A stretch of 37,065 nucleotides of DNA from Comamonadaceae bacterium. Lineage in GTDB: Bacteria > Pseudomonadota > Gammaproteobacteria > Burkholderiales > Burkholderiaceae_C. Location: contig CANFWI010000030.1 in assembly GCA_947450675.1 (NCBI GenBank), positions 1-37,065 on the forward strand. Direction: 5' to 3'. A program made the translations under genes and the position numbers. Under the pieces are notes generated by a model. The model ran no database searches. It was not told where the DNA came from and saw nothing but the letters and a program-made list of their open reading frames with translations. Below, one piece after another: positions 2,693 through 12,007 of this stretch (position 1 is the stretch's first letter; the number at the start of each line of letters is the position of its first letter).

Positions 2693-3751
2693 TTATGGAT
2701 TGCCGCGCTGCGCTCGCAATGACGAATTTTGGAAATCTTGATAGGCGGTGGCTAGGCCTGCGTCGAGGCTCACTTGGGCTTGCCAGCCGAGTGCGTTCAG
2801 GCGACGGCTGTCCATCAGCTTGCGTGGGGAGCCGTCGGGTTTGCTGGTGTCGAAGTCAATGGTGCCTTGGTAGCCGACGGTCTTGCCGACTGCCAGTGCC
2901 AGCTCTTTGATGGTGATGTCTTCACCAAAGCCCACGTTAATGTGGCTTTGCATGGGCTGGGTGTGAGCGTCTAGCGTGGGCTTGGGCAGGTTCATGACGA
3001 ACACGCTGGCAGCGGCCATGTCGTCTACGTACAAAAACTCGCGCCGTGGTGTGCCACTGCCCCAGATGGTGACTGTTGGGGCGTTGGCCACTTTTGCTTC
3101 ATGGAAGCGGCGGATCAACGCCGGGATGACGTGGCTGTTTTCTGGGTGGTAGTTGTCGCCGGGGCCGTACAGGTTGGTGGGCATGACGCTGCGGTAGTCC
3201 ACGCCGTGGCTTTGGCCGTACTGGCGGTTGTAGCTTTCGCACAGCTTGATGCCCGCAATTTTGGCAATGGCGTAGGGCTCGTTGGTGGGCTCTAGCGGGC
3301 CGGTGAGCAGCGCCGACTCGGCCATGGGCTGCGAGGCGAGCTTGGGGTAAATGCAGCTGGAGCCGAGGAACAAGAGTTTTTGAACGCCGCACCTAAAAGC
3401 CGCGTCAATCACGTTGGCCTGCACCATCAGGTTTTGGTAGATGAACTCGGCCGGGTAGGTGTTGTTGGCGTGGATGCCACCGACTTTGGCGGCGGCCAGG
3501 TAGACCTGTGTGGGCTTTTCTGCGGCGAAGAAAGCTTGCACGGCGGCTTGGTTGGTGAGGTCTAGCTCGGCGTGGGTTCTTGTGACGAGCGTGAAAGCGG
3601 GCATGGATTGCCGCGCTTCGCTCGCAATGACGGCGGTATCGTCATTGCGAGGAGGTACGACGTGGCAATCCATCGACTGCAGCTGTCGAATGATGGCGCT
3701 GCCGACCATGCCTCGGTGGCCTGCGACGTAGATTTTGTTTTCTTGGCTCAT
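2693..3751 (-). CDS. fcl: GDP-L-fucose synthase with repeat-derived insertion and tail
   Basis: Fcl is an NADPH-dependent SDR that epimerises and reduces GDP-4-keto-6-deoxy-D-mannose to GDP-L-fucose in the cytoplasm. Visible motifs are the [10 protein letters not shown] nucleotide loop (residues 11-20), the [20 protein letters not shown] signature, GSSCIYPK, the catalytic [11 protein letters not shown]yr/Lys, NLYGPGDN and [15 protein letters not shown]. The protein is 352 residues, against roughly 310-325 usual. The excess is residues ~26-50, which read entirely from a REPIN-like repeat inserted in frame between the first helix and second strand, plus a repeat-derived C-terminal tail. The start ATG overlaps the FitB stop (ATGA). 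All catalytic motifs lie outside the insert, so activity may be kept, but the gmd partner is broken. Confidence 0.93.
2695..2724. repeat. REP-like element, single copy at the 3' end of fcl
   Basis: The element runs from ATGGATTGCC (2695-2704) to CAATGACG (2717-2724) and is an imperfect palindrome. It belongs to the same family as the pair inside fcl. It supplies the last codons of fcl ([10 protein letters not shown]) and the fcl stop codon. Confidence 0.75.
3603..3673. repeat. REPIN-like inverted pair inserted inside fcl
   Basis: Two REP-like units face each other. ATGGATTGCC (3603-3612) pairs with GGCAATCCAT (3664-3673), and the inner CAATGACG (3625-3632) pairs with CGTCATTG (3640-3647) across a 7-base spacer. 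The whole forms a long stem-loop. It is open in the fcl frame and encodes residues ~26-50 without a stop. Confidence 0.85.
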
Positions 3752-4182
3752 GGAATTATTGAATGCTCGCCCCAGGGATTGACCACGGGAACCGATAAAT
3801 CATCAAAATGCCGCACATTTCGCGTGGCCAGGGTGGCGCGTCGCGCCAAGGCGATGCCGGCAATAAACGTATCACGCATGTCCACGGGGCGGCCACGAGT
3901 TTTGCGATCTGCCGCCAACTCCGCGGCGTGCGCGGCGGCATGGGTGTCAAAAATTAGTACTCGGTTTTGCAAGTCGTCTTGCACCAATTCTTCGAAGCGT
4001 TGCTCCAACAAGTCTTTGCGCCTTCCTGCGGCCAGCAGGGCCAGTCCGTAGCGGGCTTCAAATACCGTGATGCTGCTCAGCCATATGGACTCAGCGGGCT
4101 GGTCGTCCAGCCAGGCCACCACCTGCGGGTCGGGCTGCTGCTGCATCAAGGCAGACAACACATTGGTGTCCAAGATGATCAT
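3748..4182 (-). CDS. fitB: PIN-domain endoribonuclease toxin, FitB/VapC type
   Basis: The product is 144 residues, the usual length for a VapC/FitB toxin. It opens with [11 protein letters not shown] (catalytic Asp5), carries Glu42 in [12 protein letters not shown] and [10 protein letters not shown] with the third acidic site, and later has [14 protein letters not shown] toxins cleave tRNA or rRNA when not held by their antitoxin. The ATG overlaps the antitoxin stop by 4 bases (ATGA), and its own stop overlaps the fcl ATG in the same way, so it is embedded in the sugar operon. The closing [10 protein letters not shown] matches FitB-like proteins. I am confident of the fold and pairing. Assignment to FitB rather than another VapC subgroup rests on the partner. 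Confidence 0.88.
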
Positions 4183-4427
4183 TCGCCCAGCGCCATGGGT
4201 TCAACGCCCTGACCACGCAACTCCGGCAAGGGCTCAAGCAGGCCTGAACCCGCAAAGCGCGCAGCGATGCGGGTGCCGAGCTTCGCACGCGCTTGAGCCG
4301 GTTCATTGACCGCCTGCCGCAGGATTTGGCGCACCTCTTCCTCCATGCTCCAACCATGCAGACTGGCGCGCGCTTTGAGACCATTCTTCACGCCATCATC
4401 AATATTGCGTACGATCATTTGTGCCAT
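4179..4427 (-). CDS. fitA: FitA-like ribbon-helix-helix/Arc-type antitoxin
   Basis: The protein is 82 residues from the ATG at 4427, chosen because MAQMIVRNIDDGVKNGLKAR is the standard FitA N-terminus. A frame-open ATG at 4451 would add eight unlikely residues and start inside the operator region. An RHH fold is expected over residues ~1-45, including GWSMEEEVRQIL. The C-terminal tail would wrap the PIN toxin. FitA proteins repress their own promoter as FitAB complexes. A perfect 18-bp palindrome lies 25-43 bases upstream of this start and is the obvious candidate operator. The gene follows manC by 39 bases. Confidence 0.87.
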   Translation of the reverse strand: MAQMIVRNIDDGVKNGLKARASLHGWSMEEEVRQILRQAVNEPAQARAKLGTRIAARFAGSGLLEPLPELRGQGVEPMALGE

Positions 4428-4452
4428 TGGAATTCCTTCAAATTGAGTCAAA

Positions 4453-4470
4453 ATGATATCGCGATATCAT
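4453..4470. promoter_or_regulatory. Perfect 18-bp palindrome, candidate FitAB operator
   Basis: ATGATATCGCGATATCAT is fully self-complementary. It covers the manC stop codon (4467-4469) and ends 25 bases before the fitA start. Neisserial FitAB also binds an inverted repeat at its own promoter, so autoregulation of an internal promoter within the sugar operon is the simplest reading. That role is inferred. Confidence 0.7.
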
Positions 4471-5891
4471 AAACTCTCACTTGCCGGTTTGGCACGCCCG
4501 TAGGTATCCTCAAAACGCACAATGTCGTCTTCACCCAAGTAGCTGCCTGACTGCACTTCGATCAGCTCCAGATCAGTCTTACCCGGGTTTTCAAGCCGGT
4601 GTTTAACGCCTAGCGGGATGTAGGTGCTCTGGTTTTCTGTCAGCAAGATTTCTTCTTCGCCTTTGGTGACCAAGGCTGTGCCTTTGACCACGATCCAGTG
4701 CTCAGCGCGGTGGTGATGCATTTGCAGGCTGAGCTTGGCGCCCGGGCGCACGGTGATGCGTTTGACTTGGTGCCGCTCGCCAACGTCCACACTGTCGTAA
4801 GCGCCCCAAGGTCTGGCGACTTTGCGGTGCTGGACTGACTGGGAAATGTTGTCTGCGTCCAACCGGGCCACCACTTGCTTGACCTGCTCCACGTGGCTGC
4901 TGGCCGCGACCAGCAAGGCGTCGGGGGTGTCGATGATCAGTAAATCTTGCGTGCCCAAGACCACCACTGGGCGGTGCGGCGCGTGCACAAAGGTGTTGTT
5001 GGCGTGTAGCGCAAAACCTTGGCCGTTTAGCCGATTCCCTTGGGCGTCGGCTGAGGTCAGGTCTGCCACGGCGTTCCAGCTGCCGACGTCACTCCAGGCG
5101 CTGGCAAAGGGGAGCACGGCCACATTGGCGTGGTGCTCCATGACGGCGTAGTCGATGCTTTCTGAGCGGCAGGCTTCAAACGCTTGCGGCTGCGGGCGCA
5201 CAAAGCTGCCGTCTTGGGTGGCTGACGCCATGGCCAGCTGGCAGGCTTGCAAGATGTCGGGCGCGTGCTGACCCAAAGCGCTGAGCAGAGTTTGAGCAGA
5301 ACACAAAAAGATGCCAGCGTTCCAGAGCGCGCTGCCAGATAGCAGCAAGGCCTCTGCCTTGTCTTGGGCTGGCTTTTCGGTGAAGCCTTCCACATTGAAT
5401 GCGCCGTCTGGCCGTTCGCCGCCTTGGCGGATGTAACCGTAAGCGGTGCTGGGGAAAGTCGGCGAGATGCCGAAGGTGACGATGGCGCCCTGCTCCGCTG
5501 CGGCAACGCCTTGTTTGACCACTTGGGCAAAGGCAGCGGCGTCAGGGATGTGGTGGTCCGATGGGCAAAACAGAAGCAGGTCTTCTGGTTTGGCAGCCAA
5601 GGCGGCGATGGCCATAGCGGCGGCGGTGTTGCGCGCCACAGGCTCTAGCAAGACCGTGCCCTGAACCTTTGACGCCTGCATGGCTTCGGCGACGAGAAAC
5701 CGGTGCTCGTCTGAGGCGACGCAGATGACGCTCTTGCTTAATAGTGAGACACGCTCCAGCGTGAGCTGCAGCAGGCTTTTGTTGCCGATGAGCGGCACAA
5801 ACTGCTTAGGAAAGCTCTTGCGGCTGAGCGGCCACAGGCGTGTGCCAGAGCCGCCGCAGAGGACGACGGGGGTGATTGTGGGGATATTCAT
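4467..5891 (-). CDS. manC: Mannose-1-phosphate guanylyltransferase / mannose-6-phosphate isomerase
   Basis: This is a 474-residue bifunctional ManC/AlgA-type enzyme of normal length, making GDP-mannose from mannose-1-phosphate and GTP. The N-terminal nucleotidyltransferase shows VVLCGGSGTRLWPLSRKSFP (residues 9-28) and the family FCPSDHHIPD motif. ENQSTYIPLGVKHRLENPG and VKRITVRPGAKLSLQMHHHR mark the C-terminal cupin with metal-binding His residues. The product feeds Gmd and Fcl for GDP-fucose, or mannose units directly. The ATG overlaps the stop of the MarR_EPS gene (ATGA), so the two are translationally coupled. The stop codon is inside the palindrome that precedes fitA. Confidence 0.96.
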   Translation of the reverse strand: MNIPTITPVVLCGGSGTRLWPLSRKSFPKQFVPLIGNKSLLQLTLERVSLLSKSVICVASDEHRFLVAEAMQASKVQGTVLLEPVARNTAAAMAIAALAAKPEDLLLFCPSDHHIPDAAAFAQVVKQGVAAAEQGAIVTFGISPTFPSTAYGYIRQGGERPDGAFNVEGFTEKPAQDKAEALLLSGSALWNAGIFLCSAQTLLSALGQHAPDILQACQLAMASATQDGSFVRPQPQAFEACRSESIDYAVMEHHANVAVLPFASAWSDVGSWNAVADLTSADAQGNRLNGQGFALHANNTFVHAPHRPVVVLGTQDLLIIDTPDALLVAASSHVEQVKQVVARLDADNISQSVQHRKVARPWGAYDSVDVGERHQVKRITVRPGAKLSLQMHHHRAEHWIVVKGTALVTKGEEEILLTENQSTYIPLGVKHRLENPGKTDLELIEVQSGSYLGEDDIVRFEDTYGRAKPASESL

Positions 5892-6253
5892 GTTTTGTCC
5901 GATCCGTCGCCGTCTGCTTTGTCGATATCAGACCTAAGCTTCGCTATCTCGGCTTTGAGCGCTTTGTACTCGTCCATCTTGCGCTTCAAGAAGGTGCTGG
6001 TCAGGGCTGCTTTTTCTGCGATGCCGATGGGCGTCAGCAGATAGGCGTAGCCGAGCTTGTTATTGCTCTTGCTGAAGTTATGCATCTTCACCCAGCCTTT
6101 GTCTTTGAGCGCGTTCAGGCAGTAGTTCAACCCGCCGAAGCTGATGCCAAGCGCCTTGGCCAGCTCGCGCTGGCTGAGGTCTGGGTTGTCTTGCAAGAGC
6201 CTCATCAACCGGAAGTTGGTGTCCTCTTGAAGTTTTGCCTGGCGGCTGGTCAT
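5888..6253 (-). CDS. EPS-associated MarR-family transcriptional regulator
   Basis: The product is 121 residues. A winged helix spans about residues 10-80 (NFRLMRLLQDNPDLSQRELA, then KALGISFGGLNYCLNALKDK as the recognition region, then the GYAYLLTPIGIAEKAALT wing). A charged coiled-coil tail follows (FLKRKMDEYKALKAEIAKLR). This matches the MarR_EPS family found almost exclusively next to EPS or O-antigen genes. Its target is unknown and is presumably a polysaccharide promoter. It is the first gene after the ops-bearing leader and shares a 4-base overlap with manC. The start ATG at 6253 is preceded by a weak purine-rich stretch. Confidence 0.88.
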   Translation of the reverse strand: MTSRQAKLQEDTNFRLMRLLQDNPDLSQRELAKALGISFGGLNYCLNALKDKGWVKMHNFSKSNNKLGYAYLLTPIGIAEKAALTSTFLKRKMDEYKALKAEIAKLRSDIDKADGDGSDKT

Positions 6254-6302
6254 TGACTCACGGTCCTACTCTTTTAAACTTACTCGTTAAAAACTAACAG
6301 GA

Positions 6303-6314
6303 TCGCTACCGCAG
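6303..6314 (-). promoter_or_regulatory. ops-like element (RfaH recruitment site)
   Basis: On the minus strand the leader reads CTGCGGTAGCGA. GCGGTAGCG (6312-6304) is identical to the core of the enterobacterial ops element GGCGGTAGCGTG, which pauses RNA polymerase and recruits RfaH. It lies 50-61 bases upstream of the MarR_EPS start, in the 178-base leader directly downstream of the RfaH homologue. A 9-base match could occur by chance somewhere in the window, but it is improbable in this particular leader. Confidence 0.65.
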
Positions 6315-6337
6315 TGCCGCGTTGTTAAAAACGGCAC
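6314..6337 (-). other. Leader stem-loop abutting the ops-like element
   Basis: GTGCCG (6314-6319) pairs with CGGCAC (6332-6337) across a 12-base loop. On the transcribed strand the hairpin immediately precedes the ops-like core. Two bases of the second arm touch it. It could stabilise the pause or act as an attenuator; there is no U-tract suited to a terminator directly after it. A second short palindrome (GATCGA/TCGATC, 6343-6356) lies just upstream. Confidence 0.5.
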
Positions 6338-6431
6338 GCCACGATCGAACTCGATCAAGTTTACTGCCTAAAAAAACCTAAAGTGGTAATTCCAGCCATA
6401 AGCAACAAATATATCAATTTGATTATTGCTT

Positions 6432-6932
6432 TTAAAGATTAATCTTGCTGAGGCTGGGCGGCTCAACCGACAGGCTGATTTTTTTGCTGAGGATGTCGAT
6501 CAGCACCATGACGCGGGCCTCGCCGTCGGGCATCTGGTAGACCGCCTCAAGGCCGGCGAAGGGCCCGTCGTTAATACGGACGACTTCGCCCGGCTCAAAG
6601 TGGCGGCGCCGAACGCTAGCGTCGCTGACCGAGAACCGAATGGTGTCCACCAACAGGTCCTCGACCTTGGCGGGGACTTGGCCGAAGCTGACCAGCCGGC
6701 TGACGCCGGTGGTCGAGCGGATCGGGTTCCAGCTCCGGCCTTCCTGGCTGGCGTCCAACCGGATGAAAAGGTAGCGTGGAAACAGCGGCTCCTGAACCAC
6801 CACGAGCAACTTGCGGCGGATTTTCTCGACGGAGATGAGTGGTAGAAAGCACTCGAAGCCCTGCCGCTCAAGGTTCTCAAGCGCGCTGCCTTCGTGGCGC
6901 GGTTTGCTGTAGACGAGGTACCAGTTGAGCAC
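6432..6932 (-). CDS. rfaH: RfaH-like transcription antiterminator (NusG paralogue)
   Basis: The product is 166 residues, a normal RfaH length. The NGN domain begins LNWYLVYSKPRHEGSALENL, with CFLPLISVEKI and FPRYLFIRLDASQE (the RNA-polymerase-contacting NGN fold). A C-terminal KOW-like part follows, with FEPGEVVRINDGPFAGLEAV. RfaH proteins join RNA polymerase at ops sites and carry it through long polysaccharide operons. The start is GTG at 6932, overlapping the rmlC stop by one base (TAGTG); no ATG alternative exists. Its place inside the operon, immediately before a leader with an ops-like site, suggests that the upstream half of the transcript licenses the downstream half. Confidence 0.92.
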   Translation of the reverse strand: MLNWYLVYSKPRHEGSALENLERQGFECFLPLISVEKIRRKLLVVVQEPLFPRYLFIRLDASQEGRSWNPIRSTTGVSRLVSFGQVPAKVEDLLVDTIRFSVSDASVRRRHFEPGEVVRINDGPFAGLEAVYQMPDGEARVMVLIDILSKKISLSVEPPSLSKINL

Positions 6933-7489
6933 TAGCGGCCTGTCGCACCGAAGCCTGTCGCGCTGAGCGGCTGGCCTGCCAGGTCCTTGGCTGAGAGCTT
7001 GGGCTGAAGGCCGTTGAGCGGCCAGTCAATGCCAATCGCCGGGTCGTCCCAAGCAATACAACGCTCAAACTCCGGCGCGTAGTAGTCGGTGGTTTTGTAC
7101 AAAAAGTCGGCGCTATCGCTCAACACCAAGAACCCGTGCGCCAGGCCGGGCGGCACCCAGAGTTGTTTGTGGTTGTCTTCGGTGAGCTCCACGCCGACCC
7201 AGCGTCCAAAGGCAGGAGAGTCTGGACGGATGTCGACGGCGACGTCAAACACCGCGCCGCGCACCACACGCACCAACTTGCCCTGCGGCTGTGTCGTCTG
7301 GTAGTGCATGCCGCGCAGCACGCCTTTGCCGCTACGGCTGTGGTTGTCTTGAACGAACAGGTGGTCGGTACCGGTGGCGTCGTTGAAGGCTTTTTGGTTG
7401 AAACTCTCAAAGAAAAAGCCACGTGCGTCGCCAAATACTTTAGGTTCGATGATCAGCACGCCGGGGATGGCAGTGGGGGTGGTTTTCAT
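6932..7489 (-). CDS. rmlC: dTDP-4-dehydrorhamnose 3,5-epimerase
   Basis: RmlC is a 185-residue cupin that epimerises C3 and C5 of dTDP-4-keto-6-deoxyglucose in dTDP-L-rhamnose synthesis. Visible family motifs are GVLIIEPKVFGDARGFFFES near the N-terminus, FVQDNHSRSGKGVLRGMHYQ (the catalytic His/active-site strand), GAVFDVAVDIR, WVPPGLAHGFLVL, and YYAPEFERCIAWDDPAIGI. The ATG overlaps the HEPN-protein stop (ATGA), and the stop overlaps the rfaH GTG. It is thus the last rhamnose gene in the operon. Confidence 0.96.
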   Translation of the reverse strand: MKTTPTAIPGVLIIEPKVFGDARGFFFESFNQKAFNDATGTDHLFVQDNHSRSGKGVLRGMHYQTTQPQGKLVRVVRGAVFDVAVDIRPDSPAFGRWVGVELTEDNHKQLWVPPGLAHGFLVLSDSADFLYKTTDYYAPEFERCIAWDDPAIGIDWPLNGLQPKLSAKDLAGQPLSATGFGATGR

Positions 7490-7941
7490 ACTGGATACCG
7501 GGCGATCATTTGTTCAGCGTAAGTGACGACCTTGGGTACAGCGGCTAACAAGGTTGGCGACATGGCTGCTACGGCGGCATAAATCTCTGGCATCTTTTCA
7601 CTTGCGTACTCGTGTGCGATTAAATTCCGCAACTCCCTGATCTTGATCAGGTCGGTAGCTTGGCCCCAGTCACGTTTTTCGGCGCGAAAGATACGGTCCA
7701 ATACTGTGCCAGCGCCGGTCAACTCGATCTCGTCAACGAGGCGAAATAGGCGCTGAACCAAAAGATCGGAGAGGCTTGCAAAACGACTGGTGAGTGATTG
7801 AAGTCGCTCCAGTTGTTCTGGAGACCATTTTTCTTGCCCCATGAGGTCGGCGCATCTCGTCATGGAGAACTGAAGGTGCGTGGCTGACAATTGCAAACCG
7901 GTCAACTCTTGCTTCAATAGTTCGATTTTTTCCCAGGTCAT
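7486..7941 (-). CDS. hepT: HEPN-domain toxin of an MNT-HEPN (MntA-HepT) pair
   Basis: The product is 151 residues and all-alpha in appearance. It has the RNase motif RX4HXY as RNLIAHEY near residues 117-124, in the context KIRELRNLIAHEYASEKMPE that is typical of HepT/DUF86 proteins. HepT toxins cleave RNA and are silenced when the cognate MNT enzyme adds AMP to the motif tyrosine. The ATG overlaps the MNT gene stop (ATGA), and its own stop overlaps the rmlC ATG (ATGA), so toxin output is coupled to a rhamnose gene. It differs in length and sequence from the second HEPN protein at 9127-9663, so a recent duplication is unlikely. Confidence 0.87.
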   Translation of the reverse strand: MTWEKIELLKQELTGLQLSATHLQFSMTRCADLMGQEKWSPEQLERLQSLTSRFASLSDLLVQRLFRLVDEIELTGAGTVLDRIFRAEKRDWGQATDLIKIRELRNLIAHEYASEKMPEIYAAVAAMSPTLLAAVPKVVTYAEQMIARYPV

Positions 7942-8219
7942 AACCGGACTCCTGCCTTGATGGCGATTCTGGCGAATGGCGGGCTGGCGTCTGGAAAGAC
8001 GGCAAGGTCAATCTTGCGTTCACCTAGTTGTTGATGCAGCTGCGCCAAGATGTCAAGCTTGGCCATGAGCTTAATTTTTTGTGACAGGACGAGTAGATCA
8101 ATGTCTCCGCCGCGGGCTGTATCGTCAACCCGGGAGCCAAAGAGATAGATTTCTGCTTGCGCATCGGCTTGGTGAATGACCGAAGTGATGGCTTCGCGCT
8201 CTTGGCTGGCTAAGCGCAT
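7938..8219 (-). CDS. mntA: Minimal nucleotidyltransferase antitoxin (MntA-like)
   Basis: The product is 93 residues from the ATG at 8219. The frame is open to a GTG at 8237 inside rmlA, but the ATG sits in the expected place four bases after the rmlA stop. The pol-beta nucleotidyltransferase motif is plain: YLFGSRVDDTARGGDIDLLV, i.e. Gly-Ser, nine residues, then Asp-x-Asp. A later IDLAVFPDA supplies the third acidic residue. Such proteins AMPylate and inactivate the HEPN partner encoded immediately downstream with a 4-base overlap. The pair lies between rmlA and rmlC. Confidence 0.88.
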   Translation of the reverse strand: MRLASQEREAITSVIHQADAQAEIYLFGSRVDDTARGGDIDLLVLSQKIKLMAKLDILAQLHQQLGERKIDLAVFPDASPPFARIAIKAGVRL

Positions 8220-8223
8220 ATTT

Positions 8224-9111
8224 TTACCCGCGACCACTTTCTTTCAGCAACCGCAGCATGTACTGCCCGTAGCCGTTTTTAGACAGCGGCTGGGCCAGCT
8301 TCTCGAATTGCTCAGCGGTGATGAAGCCGTTGCGCCAAGCGATTTCTTCGAGGCAGGCGATCTTCAGGCCTTGCCGGCGCTCCAGCGTGGCGATGAACTG
8401 ACCGGCGTCTAGCAGGCTGTCGTGCGTGCCGGTGTCTAGCCAGGCGTAGCCGCGCTGCATGATTTGCACATTGAGTTGATTCAGGTCTAGATATGCCTGG
8501 TTGACAGCGGTGATCTCCAGCTCACCGCGGGCGCTCGGCTTGACGGCCTTGGCGATGTCGACCACTTGGTTGTCGTAAAAATACAGACCGGTGACGGCGT
8601 AGTTGCTTTGCGGTTTGAGCGGCTTTTCTTCAATGCTGCTGGCTTGGCCTTGGGCGTTGAAGGCGACCACGCCATAGCGCTCGGGGTCTTGCACATGGTA
8701 GGCAAAGACGGTGGCGCCGGAGGTCTGTGCGTCAGCTCCGGTGAGCAGGGTCGTGAAGTCGTGGCCGTGAAAAATGTTGTCACCCAAGACCAGCGCGCTG
8801 GGGGAATCGCCCAGAAACTTCTCACCAATCAGGAAGGCTTGCGCTAAGCCGTCCGGGCTGGGCTGTACGGCGTATTGCAGGTTCATGCCCCACTGGCTGC
8901 CGTCGCCCAGCAGTTGCTCAAAACGCGGCGTGTCTTGCGGCGTGCTGATGATCAGCACGTCTTGAATTCCGCCCAGCATCAAGGTGCTGAGCGGGTAATA
9001 AATCATCGGCTTGTCGTAGACCGGCAGCAGCTGCTTGCTCATGGCCAGCGTGGCCGGGTGCAGCCGGCTGCCGGAGCCGCCTGCGAGGATGATGCCTTTG
9101 CGTTGGGTCAT
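8224..9111 (-). CDS. rmlA: Glucose-1-phosphate thymidylyltransferase
   Basis: RmlA is 295 residues, the standard length, and joins dTTP and glucose-1-phosphate to start dTDP-L-rhamnose synthesis. Motifs include [20 protein letters not shown] (residues 6-25), [52 protein letters not shown] and [16 protein letters not shown]. It is flanked on both sides by MNT-HEPN pairs: 15 bases after the end of the first and 4 bases before the start of the second. The common order rmlBDAC is therefore preserved but interrupted. Confidence 0.97.
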
Positions 9112-9126
9112 GTGTCTTTTTATATA

Positions 9127-9663
9127 TCAGGAGCGCGAAATAATGGCGCGAAATTCACTCGCAAAGTCGGCGCTTTGTGGTGTGACAGCGAGCTGTGATT
9201 CACAGTAAACAACAAAGCGACCGGCGGTTGTATTGAGACTGTTTTTCAAGTCATGGAGCGTATTGAAGTGCTCTGCCACGGCCCCGTAATCTACTTCATA
9301 GTCGTGGGCGGCAAGGTTGCGCGCCGTCCGAGCAATTTGCCAGTCATCTATGGACGCAATGACGCCGAATTTTTCAAAGATAGCGAGGACTTTGATGAAA
9401 CTGTCAGCCTGCTCCCCAGACAAGACCAAACTGTGGCGCATGGCTGCGCCCAAGGTGTCTTGCAATTTAGAAAACCGTTCGTTGACCGCTGCCAATGCCT
9501 CAAAAAGATCGGTATCTTTTTTCCGTTGCGTCAGCATCGGCCCGGTCAGCGGCCAATCAATACTGCCATCGGAGGCGTCCAAAAAAAAGACGCAACGCTG
9601 TATCGCCTCAAGCAGACCGGCAAGATACTGCCTTTGGGGCTCTAGCAAAGCTTTTGCGGTCAT
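9127..9663 (-). CDS. HEPN-domain protein of a second MNT-HEPN pair
   Basis: The product is 178 residues with the HEPN motif RNLAAHDY (R-x4-H-x-Y) around residues 114-121, in the stretch DWQIARTARNLAAHDYEVDY. The rest is helical with no other recognised motif. It is longer than the HepT at 7486-7941 and belongs to a different subgroup, with a substantial N-terminal extension. Its ATG overlaps the upstream MNT stop by 4 bases (ATGA), the canonical arrangement for these toxin-antitoxin or defence pairs. By family knowledge it is probably an RNase controlled by the MNT partner. Direct evidence is the motif and the pairing only. Confidence 0.82.
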   Translation of the reverse strand: MTAKALLEPQRQYLAGLLEAIQRCVFFLDASDGSIDWPLTGPMLTQRKKDTDLFEALAAVNERFSKLQDTLGAAMRHSLVLSGEQADSFIKVLAIFEKFGVIASIDDWQIARTARNLAAHDYEVDYGAVAEHFNTLHDLKNSLNTTAGRFVVYCESQLAVTPQSADFASEFRAIISRS

Positions 9664-9980
9664 GCAGCAGGTCTTTGGTGGTCGACCGCCACAAGGCGGA
9701 CAGCGCCGGCCATGGCAATCTGGGTGAACGGGCTTGCGGCTGCACCCTCCGTCAGAGCCAACACGTCAACCGGTCGATTCAGCTTGGCCTCAAGCGCGAT
9801 CTTGATACGGGCGCGCTGCAACAAGCTCACGGGCGGATTTGATTCGACCATCAGGTCAATATCGCCGCCACGGCGCGACTCGTCAAGCCGTGAGCCATAC
9901 AGCCACACGCCCGAATTGGCACCAGCCACGGCCTGCGTGATGTCGATGATGGTGCTGACTTGCTGCTGAGTTAGACGCAT
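9660..9980 (-). CDS. Minimal nucleotidyltransferase (MNT) of the second pair
   Basis: The product is 106 residues. The nucleotidyltransferase signature is VWLYGSRLDESRRGGDIDLM: Gly-Ser, nine residues, Asp-x-Asp. The third acidic residue follows in RPVDVLALTE. The ATG lies inside the 3' end of rmlD, giving a 10-base overlap, and the stop overlaps the HEPN start (ATGA). It is presumably the antitoxin or AMP-transferase for the downstream HEPN protein. The motif is very close to that of the other MNT here, but the remainder diverges. Confidence 0.86.
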   Translation of the reverse strand: MRLTQQQVSTIIDITQAVAGANSGVWLYGSRLDESRRGGDIDLMVESNPPVSLLQRARIKIALEAKLNRPVDVLALTEGAAASPFTQIAMAGAVRLVAVDHQRPAA

Positions 9981-10903
9981 TTAGGCTCCAGAATCTCGGC
10001 CAGCATACTGCCAACGCCTTGCTGCCAATCGGGCAAGCTGAGGCCGAACGCGGCTTGCAGCTTGTGGGTGTTGAGTCGGGAATTGTGCGGGCGCTGGGCG
10101 GCGGTGACAAAGGCGCTGGACGGCACCGGCGCGATCTCTTGCACCGCCCACGGCATGTCGGGCCGCAGCGCTTTGGCTTGACTGATGACGTGGCTGGCGT
10201 AAGCGTGCCAGTGGGTCTCGCCTGCGGCGACCAGGTGATAAATACCAGCGAGTGCATCTTGATTGGCGTTCAGCTTGTGTTTGCCCGTGACCTTTTGAAT
10301 CGCCACAGCGGTCACACTGGCAATCAACTCAGCACCTGTGGGCGCGCCCCATTGGTCGTTGATCACCGTCAGACGCTCACGTTCTTGGGCCAGCTTGAGC
10401 ATGGTCTTTGCGAAGTTGCTGCCGTGCGCGGCATACACCCAGCTGGTCCTGAAAATCAGATGGCGCGTGCAAGTAGCCTGCACACGCAGCTCGCCTTCAA
10501 GTTTGCTTTGGCCGTACACATTGAGCGGCGCGGTGGGGTCGGTTTCTTGCCACGGCTCAGTGCCGCTGCCGTTGAACACATAGTCGGTGCTGTAGTGGAT
10601 CAGCCAGGCGCCCAAGGCTTCGGCCTCGCGGGCCAGCACTTCAGGGGCGTGCGCATTGATGAGCCTAGCTTGCTCGGGCTCGCTCTCGGCTTTGTCGACC
10701 GCGGTGTACGCGGCGGCGTTGACGATGACGTCGGGGCGCAGTTGGCGGATCGTCGCGGCCAGGACTTCGGGTTGACCGAGGTCGCCACACAGACCGTCGC
10801 CGCCTCGATTTCGGTCCAGCGCCACCAGCTCGCCCAAAGGCGCCAGTGTGCGCTGCAGCGCTTGGCCAACCTGGCCGTTTTTGCCGAGGAGGAGGATCTT
10901 CAT
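9971..10903 (-). CDS. rmlD: dTDP-4-dehydrorhamnose reductase
   Basis: RmlD is 310 residues and reduces dTDP-4-keto-L-rhamnose with NAD(P)H, the last step to dTDP-L-rhamnose. It shows KILLLGKNGQVGQALQRTLA at the N-terminus (GxxGxxG loop), VIVNAAAYTAVDKAESEPEQ, STDYVFNGSG, the catalytic YGQSKLEGE, and FRTSWVYAAHGSNFAKTMLK. The start ATG overlaps the rmlB stop (ATGA). The 3' end overlaps the MNT gene by 10 bases, so no independent promoter for that gene fits in the gap. Confidence 0.96.
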   Translation of the reverse strand: MKILLLGKNGQVGQALQRTLAPLGELVALDRNRGGDGLCGDLGQPEVLAATIRQLRPDVIVNAAAYTAVDKAESEPEQARLINAHAPEVLAREAEALGAWLIHYSTDYVFNGSGTEPWQETDPTAPLNVYGQSKLEGELRVQATCTRHLIFRTSWVYAAHGSNFAKTMLKLAQERERLTVINDQWGAPTGAELIASVTAVAIQKVTGKHKLNANQDALAGIYHLVAAGETHWHAYASHVISQAKALRPDMPWAVQEIAPVPSSAFVTAAQRPHNSRLNTHKLQAAFGLSLPDWQQGVGSMLAEILEPKCV

Positions 10904-11973
10904 GCTTCAGCAGTCCCTGCGTACTGCGTTTGCACCCACTGCCGATAAGCGCCGCTTTGCACGTGGGCGACCCAGTCGGGGTTGTCTAGATACCAGGCGA
11001 TGGTTTTTTGGATGCCGGTCTCGAAGGTTTCTGCCGGCTTCCAGCCGAGTTCGCGCTGGAGCTTGCTGGCGTCTATGGCGTAGCGGCGGTCGTGGCCGGG
11101 ACGGTCTTTGACGTAGGTGATCTGTGTGCTGTAGCTTTGGCCGTCGGCCTTTGGGCGCATCGTATCCAACAGGCTGCAGACGGTGTTAACGATGTCGATG
11201 TTGGGTTTTTCGTTCCAGCCGCCGACGTTGTAGACCTCACCCAAGCGGCCGCGCGCCAGCACTTCACGGATGGCGCTGCAGTGGTCTTTGACGTACAGCC
11301 AGTCGCGCACCTGCATGCCGTCGCCGTACACCGGCAGCGCTTTGCCAGCCAGCGCGTTGACGATCATCAGCGGGATCAACTTTTCAGGGAAATGGTACGG
11401 CCCGTAATTGTTGGAGCAATTGGTGGTGAGCACCGGCAAGCCGTAGGTGTGGTGCCAAGAGCGCACCAAGTGGTCGCTGGCAGCCTTGCTGGCGCTGTAC
11501 GGGCTGTTGGGCTCGTAGCGGCGCTCTTCAGTGAAGGCCGGCTCGTCTTGGCCTAATGAGCCATACACCTCGTCAGTCGAGACATGCAAGAAGCGGAACG
11601 CGGCCTTGGCGTCTGCGGGCAACTCGCCCCAATAAGCCCGCACAGACTCCAGCAACCGGAAGGTGCCGACGATGTTGGTCTGGATAAAGTCTTCAGGTCC
11701 GTGGATGGAGCGGTCGACATGCGACTCGGCCGCAAAGTTGAGCACCGCGCGGGGCTGGTGCTGCGCCAACAAACTGGCGACCAAGGCACTGTCGGCAATG
11801 TCGCCCTGCACCAAGGTGTGGCGCGCGTCGCCGTGCAGGCTGACCAAGGTTTCCGGGTTGCCGGCGTAGGTCAGCTTGTCGAGGTTGATGATCGGCTCGT
11901 CCGACTGGGCCAGCCAGTCCAACACAAAGTTGCCGCCAATGAAGCCGGCACCGCCGGTGATGAGAATGGTCAC
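10900..11973 (-). CDS. rmlB: dTDP-glucose 4,6-dehydratase
   Basis: RmlB is a 357-residue NAD-dependent SDR that makes dTDP-4-keto-6-deoxyglucose. Motifs are ILITGGAGFIGGNFVLDWLA (Rossmann loop), LNFAAESHVDRSIHGPEDFI, HVSTDEVYGSL, the catalytic YSASKAASDHLVRSW, NCSNNYGPYHFPEKLIPLMI and RPGHDRRYAIDASKLQRELG. I chose the GTG at 11973 because it places the Rossmann strand directly at the N-terminus, as in relatives. A TTG at 12003 would add ten residues without family support and would start within a stem-loop. It lies 59 bases after the Wzz gene. Confidence 0.96.
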   Translation of the reverse strand: MTILITGGAGFIGGNFVLDWLAQSDEPIINLDKLTYAGNPETLVSLHGDARHTLVQGDIADSALVASLLAQHQPRAVLNFAAESHVDRSIHGPEDFIQTNIVGTFRLLESVRAYWGELPADAKAAFRFLHVSTDEVYGSLGQDEPAFTEERRYEPNSPYSASKAASDHLVRSWHHTYGLPVLTTNCSNNYGPYHFPEKLIPLMIVNALAGKALPVYGDGMQVRDWLYVKDHCSAIREVLARGRLGEVYNVGGWNEKPNIDIVNTVCSLLDTMRPKADGQSYSTQITYVKDRPGHDRRYAIDASKLQRELGWKPAETFETGIQKTIAWYLDNPDWVAHVQSGAYRQWVQTQYAGTAEA

Positions 11974-11984
11974 AGATTTAATCA

Positions 11985-12007
11985 ATAGTTGGCGATTGAC
12001 CAACTAT
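11985..12007. other. Stem-loop in the rmlB leader
   Basis: ATAGTTGG (11985-11992) pairs perfectly with CCAACTAT (12000-12007) across a 7-base loop. It lies in the short gap between the Wzz-like gene and the rmlB GTG, ending 12 bases before the start. There is no U-tract, so it is not a standard terminator. It could affect rmlB initiation or mRNA stability. Confidence 0.5.

Follow-up and report, generated by a model that had tools for sequence, protein, structure and literature searches.

Predicted toxin–antitoxin pairs at gene boundaries of a nucleotide-sugar locus in a Comamonadaceae bacterium and in its relatives

The window analysed here, a stretch of 37,065 nucleotides (nt) of contig CANFWI010000030.1 from a Comamonadaceae bacterium (assembly GCA_947450675.1; genome of 3.06 Mb in 97 contigs), carries on its minus strand a set of nucleotide-sugar genes with three predicted toxin–antitoxin (TA) pairs fitted into their boundaries. 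The order along that strand is rmlB, rmlD, MNT2, HEPN2, rmlA, MNT1, HEPN1, rmlC, rfaH, MarR_EPS, manC, FitA, FitB and fcl; the MNT2-HEPN2 pair lies at rmlD/rmlA, MNT1-HEPN1 at rmlA/rmlC and FitA-FitB at manC/fcl. A preliminary description of the window had placed two MNT-HEPN pairs (MNT, minimal nucleotidyltransferase) and one FitA-FitB-type pair on the strand of the sugar genes and had listed several of their junctions, and both statements were confirmed. The host genes all score above the cut-offs of their families: rmlB (10900..12003; TIGR01181, 497.6 bits), rmlD (9971..10903; TIGR01214, 323.4 bits), rmlA (8224..9111; TIGR01207, 505.4 bits), rmlC (6932..7489; TIGR01221, 264.2 bits), the rfaH-type antiterminator gene (6432..6932; TIGR01955, 177.4 bits), the gene of a MarR family EPS-associated regulator, MarR_EPS (5888..6253; TIGR04176, 154.6 bits), manC (4467..5891; TIGR01479, 607.2 bits) and fcl (2693..3751; NF047922, 507.9 bits against a cut-off of 500, and PF01370, 227.9 bits).

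The pairs are embedded tightly. In the rml part, rmlB overlaps rmlD by 4 nt, rmlD runs with its last codons 10 nt into the start of MNT2 (9660..9980), MNT2 overlaps HEPN2 (9127..9663) by 4 nt and HEPN2 ends 15 nt before rmlA; MNT1 (7938..8219) begins 4 nt after rmlA and overlaps HEPN1 (7486..7941) by 4 nt, the HEPN1 stop overlaps the rmlC start by 4 nt in an ATGA, and rmlC overlaps rfaH by 1 nt. The second group begins with MarR_EPS, 178 nt beyond rfaH; there MarR_EPS overlaps manC, FitA (4179..4427) overlaps FitB (3748..4182) and the FitB stop overlaps the fcl start, again in an ATGA, each by 4 nt. The manC/FitA junction measures 15 nt if FitA starts at a TTG and 39 nt if it starts at the ATG at 4427, which is the likelier start. 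Junctions within each of the two groups span −10 to +39 nt. The original proposal was of a single operon, but the 178-nt gap 3′ of rfaH makes two transcription units likelier than one.

The family names first given to the six proteins hold for the MNTs, FitA and FitB, which score above Pfam cut-offs: MNT1 with PF18765 (41.9 bits), MNT2 with PF18765 (27.9 bits) and PF01909 (23.8 bits), the FitA-like ribbon-helix-helix protein, a predicted antitoxin, with PF22513 (65.8 bits), and the FitB-like PIN-domain protein, a predicted toxin, with PF01850 (59.4 bits). HEPN1 and HEPN2 had no matches in Pfam, NCBIfam or PADLOC, and their naming as predicted RNase toxins, with MNT1 and MNT2 as the predicted antitoxins, therefore rests on predicted fold, motif and MNT partner. 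AlphaFold models built on 30-row alignments reached a pLDDT of 83.5 for HEPN1 and 92.2 for HEPN2. In Foldseek comparisons with the PDB, ranks 1–7 for HEPN1 were HEPN toxin chains (8xeh, 8yuf, 8xdj; best E 0.0075) and ranks 8 and 9 unrelated helical proteins; for HEPN2, rank 1 was 1wty, titled probable nucleotidyl transferase protein (E 0.053), and ranks 2–8 were chains of 8yuf, 8xeh and 8xdj (HEPN chains in the range E 0.053–0.068). Neither model had a PDB match below E 0.001, and unrelated helical proteins followed lower down; a sequence search of solved structures gave only 1jog (E 0.41) for HEPN1 and nothing relevant for HEPN2. The models thus place a HEPN fold, at weak E-values, directly 3′ of the MNT gene in both pairs, as in the HEPN-MNT superfamily. 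Both proteins contain the RX4HXY motif, which is kept in 120/120 HEPN1 and 119/120 HEPN2 homologs (the best 120 of the 691 and 917 family members, respectively, found at E up to 0.001). Between the two pairs, identity is 25% for HEPN1 and HEPN2 over 126 columns and 36% for MNT1 and MNT2 over 97 columns.

The sites occupied in the window are found empty or broken in relatives of the same genus (here and below, L numbers denote loci and G numbers genomes). In L244 (genome G698) rmlA and rmlC overlap directly by an ATGA; in the window the last codons of rmlA differ, giving the protein a C-terminal tail unlike that in L244, and the ATGA overlap with rmlC is formed by HEPN1. In L246 (genome G694) rmlD adjoins rmlA and the site of pair 2 is empty; in the window it is the rmlD last codons that overlap the MNT2 start. 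Where the window has the rmlA/rmlC pair, L246 retains MNT1-HEPN1 only in pieces, with two deletions inside, and behind these stands a different MNT gene whose product passes the Pfam cut-off. Its contig ends before rmlC, and this site hence lies outside the counted boundaries. Gaps of at most 60 nt were found at 21/24 counted rmlA/rmlC boundaries of the genus and at 18/23 rmlD/rmlA boundaries. With short boundaries prevailing at rmlA/rmlC, the filled rml sites would represent the newer state, created by insertion, rather than the empty ones being deletions.

Similar arrangements occur more widely. Searches steered to these TA families, which provide examples rather than rates, found MNT-HEPN pairs at rmlA/rmlC (L205, L206), at rmlD/rmlA (L016, where rmlD is two weakly matched pieces), at gmd/fcl (L073, L091), at manC/gmd (L083) and between relatives of wza and wzc (L113). 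FitA-FitB pairs were found at rmlA/rmlC in L203 and L252, the FitB relative of L252 being 78% identical to that of the window, and L202 holds both an MNT-HEPN and a FitA-FitB pair there. At L014:1091-4801 a Zeta-toxin-like gene is found close to FitA-FitB and to a pair of the MNT1-HEPN1 type, with a FitA 87% identical to that of the window. In the genome of L206, which has an MNT-HEPN pair at rmlA/rmlC, the stretch upstream of rmlB (L206:3661-5289) also carries two PIN genes, a HEPN fragment and a VapB-like gene.

Frequencies were obtained from genomes chosen, one per genus, blind to their TA content. Among the matches listed, 79 such genomes of the family had both rmlA and hisG; setting aside 8 as lying too close to the start of a contig left 71, and the family survey was made up of the first 60 of these, 59 of which gave at least one countable boundary in each of the rml and his operons. 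Because the TA references were assembled from families that these loci themselves contain, TA families of other kinds may have escaped detection. TA genes lay at 7 of the 161 countable rml boundaries (11 of which were longer than 250 nt), in four genomes: at all three boundaries in L301 (VapBC-type), at two in L261 and at one each in L302 and L343. In the 26 rml loci of the same genus, the window excluded, TA genes or remnants were present at 6/68 countable boundaries in five loci (L222, L226, L232, L236, L240), L246 being a seventh, uncounted boundary. Among these, L226 has a VapB without a detected VapC and L236 fragments at two boundaries. Together, TA genes or remnants lay at 13/229 counted rml boundaries, plus L246. 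Pfam backs the toxin or MNT member in L222, L261 (both sites), L301 (three sites) and L343; the PIN match in L240 is below threshold (16 against 23.6 bits) and L302 has no Pfam match, both resting on similarity, while the calls in L232, L226 and L236 were made without Pfam and the gap contents of L294, L330 and L331 were assessed by eye. A FitB relative upstream of rmlA in L308 lies outside the counted genes and was left out of the tally. Genes other than TA genes also enter these boundaries, namely a KilA-N protein gene (L232) and, by eye, long genes in L255, L258, L312 and L339; a YhcG-type PDDEXK nuclease gene occurs at rmlA/rmlC (L226:5415-6461) and at hisG/hisD (L278:4481-5551). The modules thus recur in relatives at the same boundaries, as the preliminary description had suggested should be checked, and its view of separate, selfish-looking insertions is strengthened by the empty sites, the broken copy and the unrelated TA families that hold these boundaries elsewhere.

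The his operon of the same 60 genomes, picked as a clean control, proved not to be clean. One VapBC family occupied hisD/hisC in 17 of 47 countable loci and was found anywhere in the fetched stretch in 18 of 60; in 20 his loci of the same genus it was at 1/19 hisD/hisC boundaries and in two loci overall. The gap was 712–762 nt and held just the pair in 6 of the 17 cases. At L358:7613-8268 a VapB-like gene accompanies a PIN toxin gene, the PIN member exceeded the Pfam cut-off in all three loci tested (L358, L284, L321), and in L355 VapC alone was detected. None of the other 200 counted his boundaries matched the TA references. With hisD/hisC excluded post hoc, the rml boundaries are the richer ones (14/230, L246 included, against 0/200; p = 0.00015). 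Compared by locus, the his cluster is the richer (20/80 against 10/86; p = 0.028), with a match anywhere in the fetched stretch counted for his and a match at a boundary, L246 included, counted for rml. Within the limits of the reference set, rml holds at least five kinds of TA genes (MNT-HEPN, FitAB and three sorts of VapBC), and his one family at one boundary. The his cluster is therefore a partial parallel, and the related habit there indicates that sugar metabolism is not the cause; TA genes inside biosynthetic gene clusters are a general habit in these bacteria, not particular to surface sugars.

HEPN1 matches above 100 bits were found in 4 of 399 family genomes, its own among them; the draw contained five other genomes of the genus, all without such a match, while G694, which holds the broken copy, was outside this draw. 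Pfam families counted among the neighbours of HEPN1-family loci (at least 150 bits) include GDP_Man_Dehyd (5), Epimerase (5), ABC_tran (5), Wzt_C (4) and Polysacc_synt_2 (3), together with the non-sugar families ILVD_EDD (3) and ATP-grasp_5 (3); these are raw counts from crude gene calling on 78 of the 81 nearest neighbours, three very long ones being excluded, with no random-locus baseline. On the same strand as the HEPN1-family gene were 59 of the 81. A general link of MNT genes to rml was considered and rejected: 147 MNT places were among the matches listed (the three of the window's own genome excluded). For 121 of them the genome also had a listed rmlA, which lay within 5 kb in three cases (G384, G447, G395) against about 0.3 expected, so the listed MNTs are mostly elsewhere. 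Relatives of FitB occur in 480 plasmid records, all below 60% identity.

An ops-like element had no exact match in the window and five one-mismatch matches (2.48 expected). Beyond fcl, positions 2435-2674 of the minus strand match gmd (PF16363) at profile positions 1–28 only and then continue into unrelated sequence, which is either a decayed locus or an assembly join; past this stub, frames resembling pieces of sugar enzymes and glycosyltransferases were seen by eye at 2561-390. Inside the fcl frame a 17-base repeat occurs twice (2708-2724 and 3616-3632, one copy with one mismatch), as in none of 100 shuffles.

We think it probable, though well short of certain, that each pair is a TA module which a biosynthetic operon has captured where one gene stops and the next starts, and that capture and turnover have been repeated. 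The tight fit of the pairs, the empty and the decayed sites, the second module that follows a broken one and the variety of TA kinds sharing rml boundaries are all observed. Toxicity, neutralisation, co-expression, the direction of change and any benefit are what we infer. A module would insert at the junction, filled sites being insertions, and would then be co-expressed with its host operon. The HEPN and PIN proteins would act as RNases, the HEPN protein being neutralised by its MNT through AMP transfer and FitB through binding by FitA. Such pairs may be retained because losing one member unevenly would do harm and the downstream gene would stay expressed only after a near-exact deletion; addiction to the locus is possible. 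Turnover is high in rml, where the same boundaries are held elsewhere by unrelated TA families, intact or broken.

Several observations weigh against this explanation. Loss of a pair can happen, as the broken one in L246 shows. In 56/60 family and 21/26 same-genus rml loci (L246 among the 21) the counted boundaries gave no TA gene, so pairs are the exception. The gap in 11 of the 17 hisD/hisC cases is 1.7–3.5 kb wide and contains other reading frames, and in those loci, which are not clean wedges, hisD and hisC possibly do not form one operon. HEPN1 and HEPN2 had no match in 72,556 plasmid records, nor had HEPN1 in 50,697 phage records (the phage search left out HEPN2, and both searches the MNTs), an absence unusual for mobile addiction genes. 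Promoter-like hexamers number 9 against a shuffle mean of 4.0, an excess that leaves room for promoters belonging to the pairs themselves. Finally, MNT2 has a pN/pS of 0.60–0.68, and pS is near saturation in most of the pN/pS comparisons.

A more far-reaching form of the captured-module explanation holds that operon boundaries are a standing niche in this bacterial family: unrelated TA kinds would compete there for the same junctions, travel along when surface-sugar loci are exchanged and guard their locus by punishing recombinants in which the allele is replaced; we regard it as doubtful at present. Somewhat less likely still, the pairs may be neutral debris, insertions tolerated at boundaries whose proteins are inactive by now. 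The remnants in L236 and L246, the VapB of L226 without a detected VapC and the high pN/pS of MNT2 would fit, but the window pairs are full length and keep RX4HXY or the PIN match, and pN/pS against intact relatives is 0.16–0.42 for the other five proteins (0.16–0.34 for MNT1, HEPN1, FitA and FitB; 0.38–0.42 for HEPN2).

It is unlikely that the modules are internal regulators that adjust the synthesis of sugar nucleotides, with the RNases cleaving the transcript of the operon in which they are encoded. The overlaps that flank the pairs on both sides and the recurrence of one VapBC family at one his boundary would suit such a role, yet most counted rml boundaries are empty and the filled ones are held by unrelated families, which is unlike a conserved regulator. 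We give even less weight to the alternative in the preliminary description, that O-antigen supply is wired to abortive infection; the RNases would be freed when a phage attacks the surface sugar or interferes with its synthesis. Many relatives do have O-antigen or EPS genes in the vicinity of the modules, with polysaccharide-reference matches, several of them weak, in the fetched stretch of 14/28 loci (that of the window excluded) and of 22/64 HEPN1-family loci. However, the VapBC family at hisD/hisC, the dehydratase and CoA-ligase genes among the nearest neighbours of HEPN1-family pairs and the lack of HEPN1 matches in the phage collection weigh against it, and the idea gains no support. A PADLOC scan of seven proteins found no clear match to an anti-phage defence family; the best were weak matches of MNT2 (34.1 bits) and MNT1 (24 bits) to PDC-S09 and of MNT1 (20.5 bits) to PDC-M05A, both candidate defence families, which count slightly in its favour, and of MarR_EPS to Csa3 (19.1 bits). 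Chance clustering in one genome as the whole story was rejected on account of the recurrence in relatives.

That recurrence is stronger evidence than the odds of clustering, which depend on an assumed number of modules in the genome: three modules within 6.2 kb have a chance of 0.001 with about nine modules in 3.06 Mb (the 4 MNT and 5 FitB-like places seen) and of 0.11 with 40. PF01909 matches four places in the genome, two being MNT1 and MNT2 and one lying within an 892-aa frame, and PF18765 matches two places outside the window. The functions of chromosomal TA modules are disputed; filled, empty and broken sites at defined boundaries would allow locus protection, operon regulation and passive ride to be addressed directly, with the rml and his cases as natural replicates.

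Among known systems, the closest for the MNT-HEPN pairs is the type VII HepT/MntA of Shewanella oneidensis, to which they are alike in having the MNT gene first and the HEPN gene second, a predicted HEPN fold and an RX4HXY toxin. The motifs given in excerpts of PMC7641770 are RX4HXY for the HepT toxin and GSX10DXD for MntA. The window MNTs have GSX9DXD (for MNT2 as read off the sequence), one residue shorter, and this spacing occurs in 71 of the 74 MNT1/MNT2-like open reading frames scoring at least 60 bits, the other three being motif-less. Moreover, the two MNTs stay below the 60-bit cut-off of the NCBIfam MntA model (43.1 and 27.4 bits), none of the HepT models in Pfam recognises HEPN1 or HEPN2, and the window pairs are embedded in a biosynthetic operon. 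The pairs probably work like HepT/MntA, but we do not file them as strict members of that system. The third pair is closest to FitAB/VapBC, with a FitA-like ribbon-helix-helix antitoxin followed by a PIN toxin and both proteins above their Pfam cut-offs; it falls short of the NCBIfam tRNA(fMet)-VapC models (55.2 against 140 bits) and sits at manC/fcl. No report of TA pairs inside rml or his operons was found in the literature searched, which comprised the listed titles and abstract openings, with subscription papers mostly outside it. The nearest precedent, as described in excerpts of PMC2701414, comes from Thermus thermophilus, where one strain of two, HB8, has an MNT-HEPN pair in its lysine operon. 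That case is alike in that a pair within a biosynthetic operon is present in one strain and absent from another, whereas here several unrelated TA families share the same boundaries, with remnants and replacement.

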